Positions 3,931 through 14,451 are shown, counted from the first letter of the stretch. The stretch: DNA of 64,000 nt from Bdellovibrio sp. 22V (GCF_030169785.1 NZ_CP125854.1:2108001-2172000), one strand, 5' to 3'. Notes: a model not told the origin generated them from the sequence alone. Numbers and translations are program-made.

Positions 3931-5526
3931 ATGTCTTTTAACTATGCAAAGAATAAAGAACATAATTCGCAGGACAGTTTTTGGACGTCCTATTCGGATC
4001 TCTTCTTGGGGCTCAGCACGATCTTCCTATTGTTGTATGTGACAGCCAGTCTCAGAACGGGAACCGAAGGTTTGCGAAATCAAGTTGAGAATCAGAAGCT
4101 CTCTATGAAAGTAGAAGAGCTGCAACATCAATTGAAAATGTATGAATCCGTAAAGAACGATTACCTCGCCAATCAAGCCACGAAGGATGAGGCTCAAGAG
4201 TATCAGGAGCTTATGGATAAGCTCACTCTCTTGCAAGAGGACGCTAAAACGGAAAAAGACCGTCTTGTGCAGGAAGCTCTTGAGAACGAGAAAAAAGTGA
4301 AAGCTTTGAATAAGTACCAACAGATGGTGCGTAACGTTCTTAATGCCAACAAGATGGCGAAATCGAAGATCATCAACCGTGACGACTTAATCAAAGAACA
4401 AGACGTTGAAATTGAAACCCAAGAGACGACGATTGCCGACTTGAATAAGGATATTCAAGATAAGAAGCAGTTGATTTCTCAGGGTGAGATGAAGATCAAG
4501 CAAACACAGGCCGTGTTGCAAAAGCGCGTCAACGAGCTTCGCTATGCTTATAAAATGAATAAGCTTTCGAAGAATCTGTTTGAGCAGAAGATGGCTCAGG
4601 CGCGCGCTGAAAGTCAGCAAAAGGTGGAAGCTCTTTCCCAGGCCAATGCTCAGTATCAGCAGCAATTGCAAGCGGCGAGCACGCAGCTAGGTCAGGTGCA
4701 AGGGGAGCTTTCGCAAACGCAAGGATTGCTAGCGCAGAAAGAAAACGAAGCGAAGTATCTTTCTGGAGCTCTTTCAAAAACAAAAGCGGAATCGCAAGCT
4801 AGGATGGCGGCGATGTCTGCAGGTTTCGCGCAAGAGAAGGCTGGCCTGCAAGCAGGGATGGCTGCAGAGCGTGCTGCGAACGCAAGAAGAGTCGCTGCGA
4901 TGCAAGGCGCTTTGGCTGACACTCAAGGACAGTTGGCGAAAGCGAAAGCTGAAATCGAAGCGCGCAAAATGGTGGCTGGTGAAATTCAGCGCGGTTTTGC
5001 GAAAGCCGGTATCAAGGCGGATATCGACATGGAATCAGGCGATGTCGTCTTGGATTTCGGGCAAGCCTACTTTGATAGCGACTCGGACCGTTTGAAGGCG
5101 GAAATGAAAAACGTCATCGAAAGAGCGATGCCGATTTACTCGCGTTCTTTATTCGGGAATCCCAAAGTGTCGGATAAAATCTCTGCGGTCGAAATTATCG
5201 GTTTCGCTTCTCCGACCTATCAGGGGCGCTACATTGATCCGCGCAGTCCTAAGCCTGAAGATAAAGTCGCTTTGAAATACAACATGGATTTGAGTTATCG
5301 CCGTGCGAAGTCTATTTTCGCTTACATGTTGGACGACCAAAACGTGCAGTTCGACCATCAGAAGGAATTGATGTCGTTGATGAAAGTTTCAGGACGAAGC
5401 TTCTTGGAAGTCATGAATGTACAGAACAGAAACGTCGCAACAGCGGCGGAGTTCTGTAAACAGAATGACTGCAAGAAGGCACAACGGGTGATCATCCGTT
5501 TTAGCATGGATTCTAAAAAACAATAG
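3931..5526 (+). CDS. MotB/OmpA-like protein with long coiled coil
   Basis: A 531-residue protein from ATG 3931 (AGGTGGGG upstream; GTG 3916 is a less likely start). A short N-terminus leads to one transmembrane helix, SYSDLFLGLSTIFLLLYV (about 20-38). Its Asp23 sits where MotB has the proton-binding Asp (YADF in MotB, YSDL here). Residues about 50-345 are Gln/Glu/Lys/Ala-rich heptads predicted as coiled coil. Residues about 350-531 form an OmpA/MotB-like peptidoglycan-binding domain (VVLDFGQAYFDSDSDRLK; IIGFASPTYQGRYID; YRRAKSIFAYML). The channel partner follows 9 bases downstream. Flagellar MotB proteins lack the ~300-residue coiled coil, so this is a different motor-type complex; its output is unknown. 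Confidence 0.85.
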   Translation: MSFNYAKNKEHNSQDSFWTSYSDLFLGLSTIFLLLYVTASLRTGTEGLRNQVENQKLSMKVEELQHQLKMYESVKNDYLANQATKDEAQEYQELMDKLTLLQEDAKTEKDRLVQEALENEKKVKALNKYQQMVRNVLNANKMAKSKIINRDDLIKEQDVEIETQETTIADLNKDIQDKKQLISQGEMKIKQTQAVLQKRVNELRYAYKMNKLSKNLFEQKMAQARAESQQKVEALSQANAQYQQQLQAASTQLGQVQGELSQTQGLLAQKENEAKYLSGALSKTKAESQARMAAMSAGFAQEKAGLQAGMAAERAANARRVAAMQGALADTQGQLAKAKAEIEARKMVAGEIQRGFAKAGIKADIDMESGDVVLDFGQAYFDSDSDRLKAEMKNVIERAMPIYSRSLFGNPKVSDKISAVEIIGFASPTYQGRYIDPRSPKPEDKVALKYNMDLSYRRAKSIFAYMLDDQNVQFDHQKELMSLMKVSGRSFLEVMNVQNRNVATAAEFCKQNDCKKAQRVIIRFSMDSKKQ

Positions 5527-5535
5527 GGGTGGGTT

Positions 5536-6438
5536 GTGACACAAAAGGCTTTTGCTGAGTATTTTATAATTATGCTCCCTTACGCGATGGCGGGGATCTT
5601 TTTGCTCGGTCTGTTCTTTCGAGCGATGATCTACTACACAGTTCGCCGTCACGAATGGTTTGCCAAGGAATTTGAAAAACGCGTGAATCGTTTTATCGAG
5701 GGGGAAACTCCCGGTAAAACTGAAAATGTGTCTTTCTATGTGTTGGCGAAGAAAACGTTGGAAAGAACCTATTACGAAGTTTTTGAAATTCGCGACCGTA
5801 TGAAACGCCGTAAGCCTGACTCCATCATGGCGACAAGTGACCGCCTCTTTTTGGTGCGCCAAGGCTGTGCGTGGCTGGTGAAAGACATTCTGAAACAGGT
5901 GAAATTTCTGAAGTGGAGCGAAGGCAATCCAAAGCTTCTCAACATCACGAAAGCGACTTTGCAACATAATCCTTGTTTCAATCGTGTGTTCGGTGTTTTA
6001 CCGATGGTCGGTCTTAACGACTTGATCTCGATTTTGCCGGGGCTTTTCGTTGTCGCAGGGATTTTAGGAACTTTCATCGGTATCGCGGGCGGTTTGCAGG
6101 AACTCGGCACGATGAATTTGCAGGATCTTGAAAATACGAAGAACATCATGGACCGTTTCCTTCACGAAATTTCTTTCGCGATGAAAACGTCTATCGTCGG
6201 TATTATTTTTTCTTTGCTGTCGCATATTACGAACGTCATTCTTTCTCCGGAAAGAGCTTACGTTTCGATGGTGGATCGTTTTGAAAGTGCCCTTGATTTA
6301 TTGTGGTATCGCAGTGACAACAATGACTTCCCAGCTCATGAAAGACCATTCGATGAACATCGTGATGCCGTTGAAGCGCTCGCGGAAGATGCGCTTAATA
6401 AAGAGATTGGGAAGGCGGCCGTAGCCCGAGGAGCCTAA
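5536..6438 (+). CDS. MotA/TolQ/ExbB/ZorA-like proton-channel subunit
   Basis: Starts at GTG 5536 behind AGGGGTGGG. The 300-residue protein has TM1 at about 9-34, a cytoplasmic section of about 130 residues, then TM2 (GLFVVAGILGTFIGIAGGLQ, about 169-188) and TM3 (SFAMKTSIVGIIFSLLSHI, about 213-231). The GTFIGIAGG and AMKTSIVGIIF motifs are the channel helices of the MotA-TolQ-ExbB-ZorA superfamily, in which five copies surround two MotB/TolR-type helices. With the gene just upstream it probably forms an ion-driven rotary unit in the inner membrane. A truncated FHA gene begins directly at its stop codon. Confidence 0.85.
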   Translation: MTQKAFAEYFIIMLPYAMAGIFLLGLFFRAMIYYTVRRHEWFAKEFEKRVNRFIEGETPGKTENVSFYVLAKKTLERTYYEVFEIRDRMKRRKPDSIMATSDRLFLVRQGCAWLVKDILKQVKFLKWSEGNPKLLNITKATLQHNPCFNRVFGVLPMVGLNDLISILPGLFVVAGILGTFIGIAGGLQELGTMNLQDLENTKNIMDRFLHEISFAMKTSIVGIIFSLLSHITNVILSPERAYVSMVDRFESALDLLWYRSDNNDFPAHERPFDEHRDAVEALAEDALNKEIGKAAVARGA

Positions 6439-6576
6439 TTGAACACGTTCATAGTCACTATCCAAAGGAAGGATCAGGTGCTAAGCCGTGAGGTGAACAA
6501 AGATTCGTTCACCGTGGGCCGTGCTATGGAGTGCGATATCTCACTCAATGACAGTCACGTGAGTCGTGGAAAGTAA
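6439..6576 (+). pseudogene. Truncated FHA-domain gene (45 codons)
   Basis: Directly after the TAA of the channel gene, TTG 6439 opens a 45-codon frame. Its residues 22-44 (SFTVGRAMECDISLNDSHVS, then RGK and stop) match the first half of an FHA domain: GR-x3-CDI-x-L-x-D-x-x-VSR, the phosphothreonine-recognition core. A complete FHA domain continues with H/K-A-x-I and the N-G-T segment for another 50 residues; here a stop codon follows RGK and no frame downstream restores the domain. I read it as the remnant of a third operon gene cut by deletion. It could still be translated by coupling as a short peptide. Confidence 0.75.
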
Positions 6577-7040: not shown

Positions 7041-7454
7041 ATGGCATACGTCTACTTGGCAGCAGCAATTATCTTTGAGGTCGTCGGCACAATCACGATG
7101 AAGTACTCGGAGGGATTCACAAAGGTGATCCCAGTCATACTCACTCTGGTATGTCATGGAATCTGCTTTGTGGCTCTCGCTGTAGCACTGAAGTCCCTCC
7201 CTATCAGCATGGTCTATGCTATTTGGGCGGGTGTGGGAACAGCGATCATGGCGTTCATCGGCATGATGATGTTCAATGAGCCTCTTCCTCTGCAAAAAGT
7301 TCTCGCGACAACGCTTATTATTGTGGGTGTTGTGATGTTGAACTTCGCAGACAAAGAAAAGCCTGCTGAACAACTTGCAAAAGTTGAAACAGCAAAAGAG
7401 TTGAAAGAAAAACCAGCCGTGGTTGTTGATATGCGACAACGCAATTCTGGTTAA
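7041..7454 (+). CDS. SMR family multidrug efflux protein (EmrE-like)
   Basis: A 137-residue protein with the four transmembrane helices of small multidrug resistance pumps. TM1 (YLAAAIIFEVVGTITMKYS) carries the essential glutamate corresponding to EmrE Glu14, and SMVYAIWAGVG matches the signature around Trp63. SMR dimers exchange protons for cationic drugs or guanidinium-like compounds in the inner membrane. The last 30 residues (KEKPAEQLAKVETAKELKEK...) are a charged extension that standard 105-110-residue members lack. The WAGVG motif is closer to EmrE/QacE than to the SugE/Gdx type. Confidence 0.92.
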   Translation: MAYVYLAAAIIFEVVGTITMKYSEGFTKVIPVILTLVCHGICFVALAVALKSLPISMVYAIWAGVGTAIMAFIGMMMFNEPLPLQKVLATTLIIVGVVMLNFADKEKPAEQLAKVETAKELKEKPAVVVDMRQRNSG

Positions 7455-11963: not shown

Positions 11964-12788
11964 ATGACTTCTTTACTGGCGCACGTTGATTCGCTAGGAA
12001 GATTTGTTACGAAGAATTTGGAGTACACGGCACGTGTCCTCCTGATGGTCTATCTTTCGTTGCGTGCCACTCTGCTTGATAAAGCCCAAGGCTTTCGCCA
12101 AATTGTCGGCGTTATTTCCGCACAAATTTATTTCACGGGCTGGCAGGCGTTGCCATTGATCTCGGTTCTTGCTTTGGGCGTGGGCTCCATCATGATCATG
12201 CAGTCTTTGGCCAATCTGACTTTGCTTGGCGGCACACAAATGATCGGAAGCTTTTTGATCGTGATGGTTTTGCGTGAGGCCGGGCCGTTACTTGTGGCTC
12301 TTGTGGTGATCGCACGCTCGGGGACGGCGGTTGCTTCCGAAGTTGGAAATATGCGCGCCAATCGCGAGATCGAAGCCCTTGAGAGCATGGGAATTAATCC
12401 TTTGAGTTTCATTGTTTTCCCGCGTGTCATTGGCGGCATTATCAGCGTGCTTGCCTTGGCTTTCTATTTCAACTTTATCGCCTTGATCGGCGGCTTTCTG
12501 GTCACACGGTTTGTGCAGGATATGCCGTTTGCCTTCTATACGGATTCTTTAATGCGGGCTTTTGCTCAAGAGGACGTGCTGATCTTTCTTCTTAAAAACG
12601 GATTTAGCGGGATGATCATTTTCGTCGTGTCTTGCTATCAAGGCTTGTCGGTAAAGCGCAGTCCGCATGAAGTTCCACAAGTCACCACGCAAGCGGTCGT
12701 TAACAGCATTATCTTCGTAGTTATTTTTAATCTTATGGTTTCAGCTTTGTTTTATTTAAATCAACTTCGCAGTTTAGGGGTGGTCTAA
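11964..12788 (+). CDS. mlaE: MlaE-type ABC transporter permease
   Basis: The 274-residue inner-membrane permease of the Mla/MCE lipid transport system. It has the MlaE signature LREAGPLLVALVVIARSGTAVASEVGNM followed by EIEALESMGINP, and five to six hydrophobic segments. Together with the ATPase and MCE protein downstream it would move phospholipids between inner and outer membranes. The genes overlap by 1 and 4 bases, so this is one operon. No MlaB or MlaC gene is adjacent. Confidence 0.93.
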   Translation: MTSLLAHVDSLGRFVTKNLEYTARVLLMVYLSLRATLLDKAQGFRQIVGVISAQIYFTGWQALPLISVLALGVGSIMIMQSLANLTLLGGTQMIGSFLIVMVLREAGPLLVALVVIARSGTAVASEVGNMRANREIEALESMGINPLSFIVFPRVIGGIISVLALAFYFNFIALIGGFLVTRFVQDMPFAFYTDSLMRAFAQEDVLIFLLKNGFSGMIIFVVSCYQGLSVKRSPHEVPQVTTQAVVNSIIFVVIFNLMVSALFYLNQLRSLGVV

Positions 12789-13498
12789 TGAAAATCGAGA
12801 GTCTTAAATTTGAAGGTGTTTCATTTACACACGAGGGACAAGATCCGATTGTTCACAACGTCGAGTTTGATTTTCCAATGAACGAGATTCACTGGGTCAA
12901 GGCGGAAGAAGGAGCCGGGAAGAGTTCGCTTTTGCAAATTCTAGCAGGCTTGCAAATTCCTCAATCGGGGAAGTACTTGATCAACGGTGAAAATGTTTTG
13001 GAAATGTCTTTTGAAGAATTTTTACCGTATCGCCTGCAAATCGGTTACTCGTTTGACTACGGCGGTTTGATCAACAATCGCACGCTGTTTGATAACTTGA
13101 TGTTGCCTCTTTTGTATCACAAGGTGGTTTCTCCGGAAGAAGCGAAAAAGCGTGTCGTAGACATGTTGAAGGAATTCGGCATGGAAAAATTCGCGCACGA
13201 AAGACCTGCGCACGTGCCAGGCCGCATTCGCAAGCTGACATGTGTTTTAAGAGCCTTGATCATGCGCCCGCAAGTTCTGCTTTTAGATGATCCAAGTGTG
13301 GGGATGGGCCAAGACAGTATTTATACTTTCGTGGATCATATCCATCGCCTGCGCAAAGAAGGCCACTTCAGTCATATTTTTATTAGCTCTTACGATGAGA
13401 AGTTTATGAACCTGTTTGCTTATCAAATTATCCACTTGGATGATGGGCAGCTTTATTACCAAGCAGTGGATCCAGAGAAAAGAGTTGTTCATCTATGA
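12788..13498 (+). CDS. mlaF: MlaF-like ABC ATPase with divergent motifs
   Basis: A 236-residue ABC ATPase paired with the MlaE permease. Walker A is EEGAGKSSLLQILAGL (about residues 38-53). The signature motif LSGGQ is replaced by VPGRIRKL, and Walker B is VLLLDDPS, with Asp instead of the catalytic Glu. The H-loop region reads HIFISSYDEKFM and lacks a clear switch His. These changes suggest slow or altered ATP hydrolysis compared with E. coli MlaF. Its place in the mlaE-mlaD operon leaves little doubt about its partner. Confidence 0.88.
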   Translation: MKIESLKFEGVSFTHEGQDPIVHNVEFDFPMNEIHWVKAEEGAGKSSLLQILAGLQIPQSGKYLINGENVLEMSFEEFLPYRLQIGYSFDYGGLINNRTLFDNLMLPLLYHKVVSPEEAKKRVVDMLKEFGMEKFAHERPAHVPGRIRKLTCVLRALIMRPQVLLLDDPSVGMGQDSIYTFVDHIHRLRKEGHFSHIFISSYDEKFMNLFAYQIIHLDDGQLYYQAVDPEKRVVHL

Positions 13499-14451
13499 TG
13501 AAGGTGAAGTTTAATAAGTTTGAAAGAGTCGCAGGTCTCTTCATTCTCTTGGCTATTGGGGGAGTGTTGCTGACCGCGACCGTTGCAGCGATCAAACAAG
13601 GTTGGTTTGAGCCGAAGGTCCGCTATACGACGACGTTTGAAAATGCTGACGGGATTCATCAGGGAACCTTGGTGCAAATCTCGGGTCTGCGTGCCGGCGC
13701 CGTAGAAACCGTGGAACTGGAAAGCGACAATCGCATTCGCGTGGGATTTTACGTCTTGGGAAAATTCCAGGACCGTATTCGTGAAAACAGCACGGTGCAA
13801 CTGATTCGTCCGTTTATTATCGGGGAAAGAGTGCTCGATCTGTCGGTTGGAAGCGATCGGTTTGAAGTCATTCCAGCGCAAAGTGCGGTGAAGTCTTTAG
13901 AGACCGTGGATCTTATGACATTGATGAGCGGAAAGAACATGAATTCCTACCTTTCAAAATTGGGAGGAATCTTAGAAAGCATGCAAGTGATTGTCGATGC
14001 TTTTGCGGATAAAAGCCGTGCCGAAAGCATGGTGCGTGTGATCGACCGACTTGATCCGTTAATGAAAAATCTGAACACGATGTCGATGGAAGTCATCAAA
14101 CTTTCCAAGCAGGCCACACATGACGATGGCGTGCAAAAGCTTGTCGGCAATTTAGCTGTGACAACCCGGGAGATCAATCGCATCTTGCCTGAGCTCAACG
14201 AACAAAATCCGGAGCTCGCAAAAGATTTGGCAACCATGACGCAGAATCTGGCGGTGGTAACCAAGGCGATCGGACCTGCGGTAAAAGAAGTAGAAACGGA
14301 ATTACCGGGAGCGAGTGTGAAACTCGTTCAGGCTCTCAATGAGACAGTGGTTGTCCTAAAAGCGATGCAAAAGAGCTTCTTTATGCGAGGAAGTGTTCGT
14401 GAAGTGAAAGAAGAAGAAGATGCTTTACGAATGCCGGCTCACACTAAGTAG
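13495..14451 (+). CDS. mlaD: MlaD-like MCE domain protein
   Basis: A 318-residue protein whose ATG overlaps the mlaF stop codon (ATGA). One N-terminal transmembrane helix (VAGLFILLAIGGVLLTATVA) is followed by the MCE domain (residues about 40-115: YTTTFENADGIHQGTLVQISGLRAGAV, then VGFYV). The following 200 residues are largely helical, as in longer MCE proteins that build a hydrophobic tunnel. It binds lipids in the periplasm and couples to MlaEF. Confidence 0.92.
   Translation: MMKVKFNKFERVAGLFILLAIGGVLLTATVAAIKQGWFEPKVRYTTTFENADGIHQGTLVQISGLRAGAVETVELESDNRIRVGFYVLGKFQDRIRENSTVQLIRPFIIGERVLDLSVGSDRFEVIPAQSAVKSLETVDLMTLMSGKNMNSYLSKLGGILESMQVIVDAFADKSRAESMVRVIDRLDPLMKNLNTMSMEVIKLSKQATHDDGVQKLVGNLAVTTREINRILPELNEQNPELAKDLATMTQNLAVVTKAIGPAVKEVETELPGASVKLVQALNETVVVLKAMQKSFFMRGSVREVKEEEDALRMPAHTK

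Follow-up and report, generated by a model that had tools for sequence, protein, structure and literature searches.

The window analysed here is a 64,000-nt stretch of the genome of Bdellovibrio sp. 22V (G000 in our comparisons), and all positions refer to the window unless another genome is named. On the plus strand, positions 3931–5526 encode c0, a ZorB/MotB-type protein of 531 aa, recognised by the PADLOC ZorB1 model, by profile matches to PDB sequences and by its fold. After a gap of 9 bp, positions 5536–6438 (plus strand) encode c1, a short ZorA/MotA-type channel subunit of 300 aa with three transmembrane (TM) regions, recognised by the same three kinds of evidence. The operon's third gene, c2, which encodes an FHA-domain protein, is represented by a 5′ stub that begins immediately after the c1 stop codon; the stub encodes 45 aa (6439–6576, plus strand) and was identified by its 86% identity to the start of intact c2. 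Within the stub, the 21-bp sequence ATGACAGTCACGTGAGTCGTG (6548–6568, plus strand) marks a rearrangement breakpoint: it is found at both ends of the broken c2, and synteny with the related genome G020 breaks here. An earlier note on this DNA had described a MotB/OmpA-like protein and a MotA/TolQ/ZorA-like protein encoded 9 bases apart, and both are present as described.

At its N-terminus, c0 has a short stretch in the cytoplasm; a single hydrophobic segment follows, then a long helical part that runs to residue ~359, and finally an OmpA-like domain. Hydropathy and conservation define a single TM helix at residues 19–43 (3985–4059, plus strand), which carries a W-x-S-Y-S-D-L-F motif; Trp18, Tyr21, Ser22, Asp23, Leu24 and Phe25 are invariant in 29/29 homologues. 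Profile alignment sets fWtsYSDLF of c0 against FWISYADLM of Escherichia coli ZorB, with Asp23 (codon 3997–3999, plus strand) opposite Asp26. In Zorya, the equivalent ZorB Asp24 is required for defence (PMC11890865). The earlier suggestion that Asp23 corresponds to a proton-binding Asp agrees with both the alignment and the invariance, and we regard this residue as a conserved candidate proton carrier, through which protons would flow.

Residues 44–359 of c0 (4060–5007, plus strand) form a helical spacer of about 315 residues, the length of which differs among species in the alignment of 29 homologues. The AlphaFold2 model, which like that of c1 rested on a small alignment (only 29 sequences for c0 and 31 for c1), predicts a nearly continuous helix from residue 20 to 359 followed by an OmpA-like alpha/beta domain. 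The individual helices span residues 20–81, 85–208, 214–307 and 314–359, with breaks within the spacer at 82–84 and 209–213; pLDDT in the spacer is 80–90 between residues ~150 and 270. In structural comparisons, residues ~136–291 matched antiparallel coiled coils, including those of the SMC arm, the dynein stalk and the PI3K inter-SH2 region. Given the helix breaks and the matches to antiparallel coils, the spacer is probably a helical hairpin that turns at residues 209–213, and hence a folded-back stalk rather than a straight rod. A straight rod of ~300 residues would be 45 nm long, which exceeds a normal periplasm. Thus, the coiled coil of ~300 residues proposed previously is present as a long helical spacer, but it is predicted to fold back instead of forming one rod.

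The OmpA-like C-terminal domain of c0 (residues 360–531; 5008–5523, plus strand) was assigned from Pfam, fold and conservation. Its match to PF00691 (OmpA; 18.5 bits) and the match of c0 to MotB_plug (13.4 bits) are both below the Pfam cut-offs; by fold, the C-terminal part of c0 resembles ZorB (8vvi; Z 16.9) and MotB (Z 12.8). The OmpA signature residues Asn451, Leu454, Ser455 and Arg458 are retained, and two cysteines, C509 and C514, are invariant in the 29 homologues. The GHTS motif of the ZorB II peptidoglycan site reads GFAS in c0, with Ser427 invariant. Since the peptidoglycan-site His is replaced by Phe, peptidoglycan binding by c0 is uncertain.

Hydropathy analysis of c1 gives three hydrophobic regions (residues 5–36, 151–190 and 211–238), and the protein ends ~60 residues past the last of these, without a long cytoplasmic tail. 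Gly175, Gly178, Thr179 and Gly182, all in the second hydrophobic region, are invariant in 31 homologues. The AlphaFold2 model (mean pLDDT 82) has a predicted fold of the MotA/TolQ/ExbB/ZorA type, with which the profile matches agree, the MotA_ExbB Pfam match itself (17.1 bits) being below its cut-off. Structural comparison gave Z scores of 12.7 for ZorA, 12.2 for ExbB and 11.4 for TolQ; because these values are nearly equal, with ExbB within 1 Z unit of ZorA, fold alone cannot part ZorA from ExbB and TolQ, whereas sequence profiles do separate them.

The PADLOC ZorB1 model matches c0 (7.1e-29), and many PADLOC ZorA models match c1, among them ZorA1 (1.3e-11); NCBIfam ZorA families also match c1 (6.3e-11 and 2.3e-10), all below the NCBIfam cut-offs. 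As a control, we took five other members of the MotA/TolQ/ExbB family encoded in this genome. None matches any PADLOC model at 0.001, and all five match TolQ or MotA models strongly. We also ran profiles built from the 31 c1 and 29 c0 homologues against all PDB sequences. The c1 profile matched only ZorA (best 1.1e-7), and the c0 profile matched ZorB (8.8e-6 and 1.6e-5) and otherwise unrelated coiled coils that align with the spacer; MotA, TolQ and ExbB were absent from the matches of either profile. Among Pfam and NCBIfam models, c0 matches OmpA, MotB_plug and ZorB and no TolR/ExbD model. The weak MotA_ExbB and MotB_plug matches could indicate that c0 and c1 are ordinary flagellar stator paralogues. 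However, c1 has three rather than four hydrophobic regions and no MotA NCBIfam match, whereas two further MotA genes in the genome reach 285.7 and 337.2 bits with models of the flagellar motor, and we consider a stator origin very improbable indeed. We conclude from the profiles that the nearest described relatives of c0 and c1 are Zorya ZorB and ZorA, not flagellar, Tol or Exb proteins. The pair had previously been set apart from flagellar MotAB, TolQR and ExbBD, a distinction that holds. It had also been set apart from classic Zorya; this is right in that there is no ZorA tail and there are no effector genes, but the ZorAB kinship that had been set aside is still the closest one.

Two features of the locus bear on a possible Zorya assignment. 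ZorA and ZorB homologues are encoded side by side, the arrangement by which Zorya is recognised; and a PADLOC search of the nine flanking genes and c2 gave no match to ZorC/D/E/F/G or to any other model. Given that a ZorA tail and effector genes were sought and not found, c0-c1-c2 should not be classed as a Zorya system. A PHROGs search gave no match, and we therefore reject a phage-borne origin.

In relatives, intact c2 encodes a protein of 707–1369 aa in which an FHA domain (3e-17) is followed by a long coil, a single TM helix and a conserved C-terminal domain of ~150 residues, for which we found no Pfam match and no TonB match. The gene starts within 0–90 bp after c1 in nearly all relatives. 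Among 26 homologues, Gly27, Arg28, Ser42, His45 and Gly65 of the FHA domain are invariant and Asn64 is conserved in at least 90%, so that the canonical phosphothreonine-binding residues (GR, SxxH, NG) are kept. The TM segment lies at residues 550–568 of the G020 protein and is preceded by basic residues; from this position and charge, the FHA domain and coil would lie on the cytoplasmic side, with the C-terminus in the periplasm. Some Bdellovibrionota loci (L105:2055-4832, L106:6021-8702, L119:4233-5174) have a further FHA gene next to the operon, possibly a c2 duplicate.

The c2 stub still matches FHA models (PF16697, 1.2e-4; PF00498, 0.018). It covers c2 residues 1–43, and blastn homology ends at 6566–6568. 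The remainder of c2, residues 37–729 (76% identity), lies outside the window at G000:C1:1196384-1198468 on the minus strand, 916 kb away; an internal deletion of c2 is thus rejected. This distant piece is an open frame of 723 codons, in which the first start codon, a GTG, would give a 691-aa protein. The two break ends share 21/21 identical bases, and synteny with G020 extends over c0, c1 and the beginning of c2, then jumps to the distant piece for 36 kb. A simple inversion is insufficient as the cause: Dps and SMR genes, which would be the ancestral neighbours had there been one inversion, are ~500 kb apart in G020 and G006. Because synteny with G020 shows at least two further breaks, and so at least three in all, we conclude that c2 was split by a multi-step chromosomal rearrangement, although the split, seen in only one genome, may be an assembly error.

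Some neighbouring genes were noted in passing. Immediately upstream of the displaced c2 piece lie a RelE/HigB-like toxin gene with an Xre-type antitoxin gene (by eye) and a Dps-like gene (L075:3632-4989; G000:C1 about 1198500–1199900); at least the flanks of this toxin–Dps stretch are ancestral, and the stretch moved next to c2. An SMR/EmrE-like transporter gene (by eye) at window positions 7041–7454 lies ~560 kb from c0-c1 in G020 and adjoins them here because of the rearrangement. Positions 11964–14451 look like an ordinary Mla-type lipid-transport operon (permease, ATPase and MCE protein; by eye).

The break parts Arg28, in the stub, from His45 and Asn64, in the distant piece, so neither piece would encode a complete FHA site. 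Since c2 is cut within the FHA domain, phosphothreonine control has probably been lost in this strain. The earlier note had proposed such control and had listed a truncated FHA gene in the operon: the FHA gene is a genuine component, with its site intact in relatives, but it is one half of a broken gene rather than a naturally short one. The cut inside the FHA domain would fit an operon that is a decaying relic in this strain, and the close relative G017 has lost all three genes. However, the reading frames of c0, c1 and the distant 3′ piece of c2 are open, and their divergence is no faster than that of intact homologues: the distant piece is 71–77% identical to three relatives, compared with 75–77% between G020 and the other two. 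We conclude from this rate that either the split is recent or the distant piece is still used. A recent split or an assembly error would each account for the broken gene, and we regard decay as a serious possibility, though short of an even one.

To place the operon in a wider context, we examined 60 related genomes. Both c0 and c1 are present in the same 39, and c2 is present in 37 of these 39 and absent from all 21 others, never occurring without c0-c1. Intact FHA genes thus accompany the pair, a combination that the earlier note had suggested searching for, and no further conserved neighbour emerged. The two genomes in which c0-c1 are kept and c2 is undetected (G047:C1:314181-315587 and G052:C36:39016-40429; L072, L073) belong to one genus and have a longer spacer and a different c1 C-terminus, indicating that c2 is not strictly needed in that genus. 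In 80 named loci, all apparently from Bdellovibrionota (a few carry titles suggestive of mis-binned MAGs), both c0 and c2 are present on contigs that extend far enough, L156 being one of very few exceptions; other neighbour families adjoin the operon in no more than six. We conclude from these neighbourhoods that c0-c1-c2 is a three-gene unit without a fixed context. In a phylum sample, c1-type matches occur in 144 of 291 genomes, a distant sister group included. The dN/dS of c1 is ~0.01–0.04 between species, an approximate value as synonymous sites are near saturation. Given this purifying selection and retention of the pair across the phylum, the arrangement is not a product of chance.

The same data bear on whether the operon is a degenerate or unusual Zorya anti-phage system, in which the pair would sense phage envelope damage and c2 would be an unrecognised effector or sensor. 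ZorA and ZorB are the nearest sequence relatives, and loss of the genes is patchy, as this explanation would have it. However, c1 has no ZorA tail, the ZorB-like gene comes first, the PADLOC searches found no partner, the distribution is conserved and apparently vertical under strong purifying selection, and no defence gene is conserved near the operon in the 80 loci. We therefore think a Zorya system improbable; the distribution and the partners are more in keeping with a role in the envelope or in predation than with phage defence. The operon is present in nine of ten putatively named intraperiplasmic Bdellovibrio (HD100, Tiberius, SSB218315, kdesi, W, NC01, KM01, SKB1291214 and ZAP7), the exception being the putative B. 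reynosensis (G017), and both sequenced epibiotic predators, the putative P. exovorus JSS (G025) and Ca. B. qaytius (G187), are without it (lifestyles from the genome table in PMC11656739). This pattern is only a hint, since the two epibionts belong to one lineage.

Divergent c0-c1 pairs in one family of the phylum (f18; c1 profile E ~1e-33 to 1e-41) also have the OmpA protein first, and in some of these sister pairs the spacer is longer still. In six of six sister loci (L187, L188, L189, L190, L191 and L192), a ~150-aa protein is encoded directly after c1, in place of the FHA gene. Three of these proteins were scanned and contain cNMP_binding (1.7e-17, 2e-13 and 2.3e-21); the other three are closely alike by eye. 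At least one genome, G232, carries both the FHA-type and the cNMP-type forms. Because the sister pair has a cNMP-binding protein where c2 would be, the cytoplasmic signal reader appears to be a swappable part.

Sequence comparisons thus support well the assignment of c0 and c1 as a ZorAB-lineage motor subunit pair with a third, signalling subunit. Beyond this, we lean towards a reading in which c0 forms the dimer and c1 the pentamer of a proton-driven 5:2 motor, c2 is a third, cytoplasm-facing subunit, and the role is most likely in the cell envelope. Rotation, c2 docking and anchoring are inferred by analogy with Zorya, MotAB and TolQR. Asp23 would carry protons between a ring of c1 subunits and the pair of c0 TM helices, and the OmpA-like domains, on their long and probably folded-back stalk, would attach to, or press against, peptidoglycan or the outer membrane. 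The FHA domain of c2 would read a phosphothreonine signal; c2 would reach the motor by its coil and TM helix, couple signal and motor to its extracytoplasmic C-terminal domain, and so stand in for the cytoplasmic tail of ZorA in Zorya. Most probably, the motor would serve to transmit force, to move over surfaces or to enter prey, and not to defend against phage. The cut in c2 would, in this genome, impair FHA control and possibly the whole machine.

A related possibility is a gliding or force motor like Myxococcus Agl-Glt or Tol-Pal, with c2, as GltG, an FHA-TM-periplasmic transducer that is driven by c0/c1 and acts on the outer membrane. In the Agl-Glt core, GltG combines an FHA domain at the N-terminus with a TonB-like domain at the C-terminus (PMC3169522), and the FHA domain, coil, TM helix and conserved C-terminal domain of c2 resemble this layout. 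However, c0 is of the OmpA/ZorB type rather than the TolR/ExbD type, c2 has no TonB match, and the Bdellovibrio Agl-Glt candidate is a different locus, Bd0828-0838 (PMC3169522); we consider such a motor unlikely. The FHA proteins Bd0473/Bd0474 in the Bdellovibrio Tn-seq and AlphaFold papers were rejected as the same locus, as they belong to a different, Tad-linked one. Our literature search found no description of a c0-c1-c2 operon, and a published stator phylogeny excludes ZorAB and does not mention FHA (PMC12505986). The motor is uncharacterised, probably proton-driven and found across Bdellovibrionota, and two of its three genes are whole in the window. A further suggestion, which we make tentatively and hold to be doubtful, is that it represents a new class of Bdellovibrionota-specific proton-powered envelope machine: a motor of the ZorAB type that lacks the tail, has a long folded stalk in the periplasm and serves intraperiplasmic predation under the control of interchangeable cytoplasmic signal readers, either an FHA-coil-TM protein or, in the sister system, a cyclic-nucleotide-binding one.

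Flagella, gliding, nutrient import, the upkeep of the outer membrane and phage defence all draw on ion-driven 5:2 motors. If our favoured envelope reading is true, a conserved motor of the ZorAB lineage that lacks defence partners, and whose regulatory subunits would read phosphothreonine or perhaps cyclic nucleotides, would make the Zorya motor one member of a larger family of envelope machines. It would also be a candidate for force-generating steps of predation, which is testable in B. bacteriovorus HD100, a genetically tractable strain with intact copies of all three genes.

Of the known systems, Zorya ZorAB (types I and II; PDB 8qyd, 8vvn and 8vvi; PMC11890865) is closest, with the best sequence and fold relatives of both proteins, a ZorB TM Asp (Asp26/Asp24) equivalent to Asp23 of c0, and the fold of an OmpA-like peptidoglycan domain on the B subunit. 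Unlike Zorya, the operon described here encodes an A subunit without the long C-terminal tail and a B subunit with a long helical spacer, places the B gene first, has a third gene with FHA, coil and TM helix instead of ZorC/D/E/F/G, and is retained phylum-wide with no conserved defence genes nearby. Flagellar MotAB/PomAB share the MotB-like topology, the OmpA-like domain (Z 12.8 to MotB) and the TM Asp, but differ in the four hydrophobic regions of the A subunit, in the MotA models that fail to match c1, and in a spacer far shorter than that of c0. TolQR, ExbBD and AglRQS have in common with c1 the three-TM A-subunit fold (ExbB, Z 12.2), whereas c0 has an OmpA-like domain rather than one of the TolR/ExbD type, and these systems gave no profile match in the PDB. 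Finally, GltG of the Myxococcus gliding complex (PMC3169522) differs from c2 in that the C-terminal domain of c2 has no sequence match to TonB and in that its motor, AglRQS, is not ZorAB-like; yet GltG, like c2, combines an N-terminal FHA domain with a C-terminal extracytoplasmic domain, and it works with a proton-driven motor.
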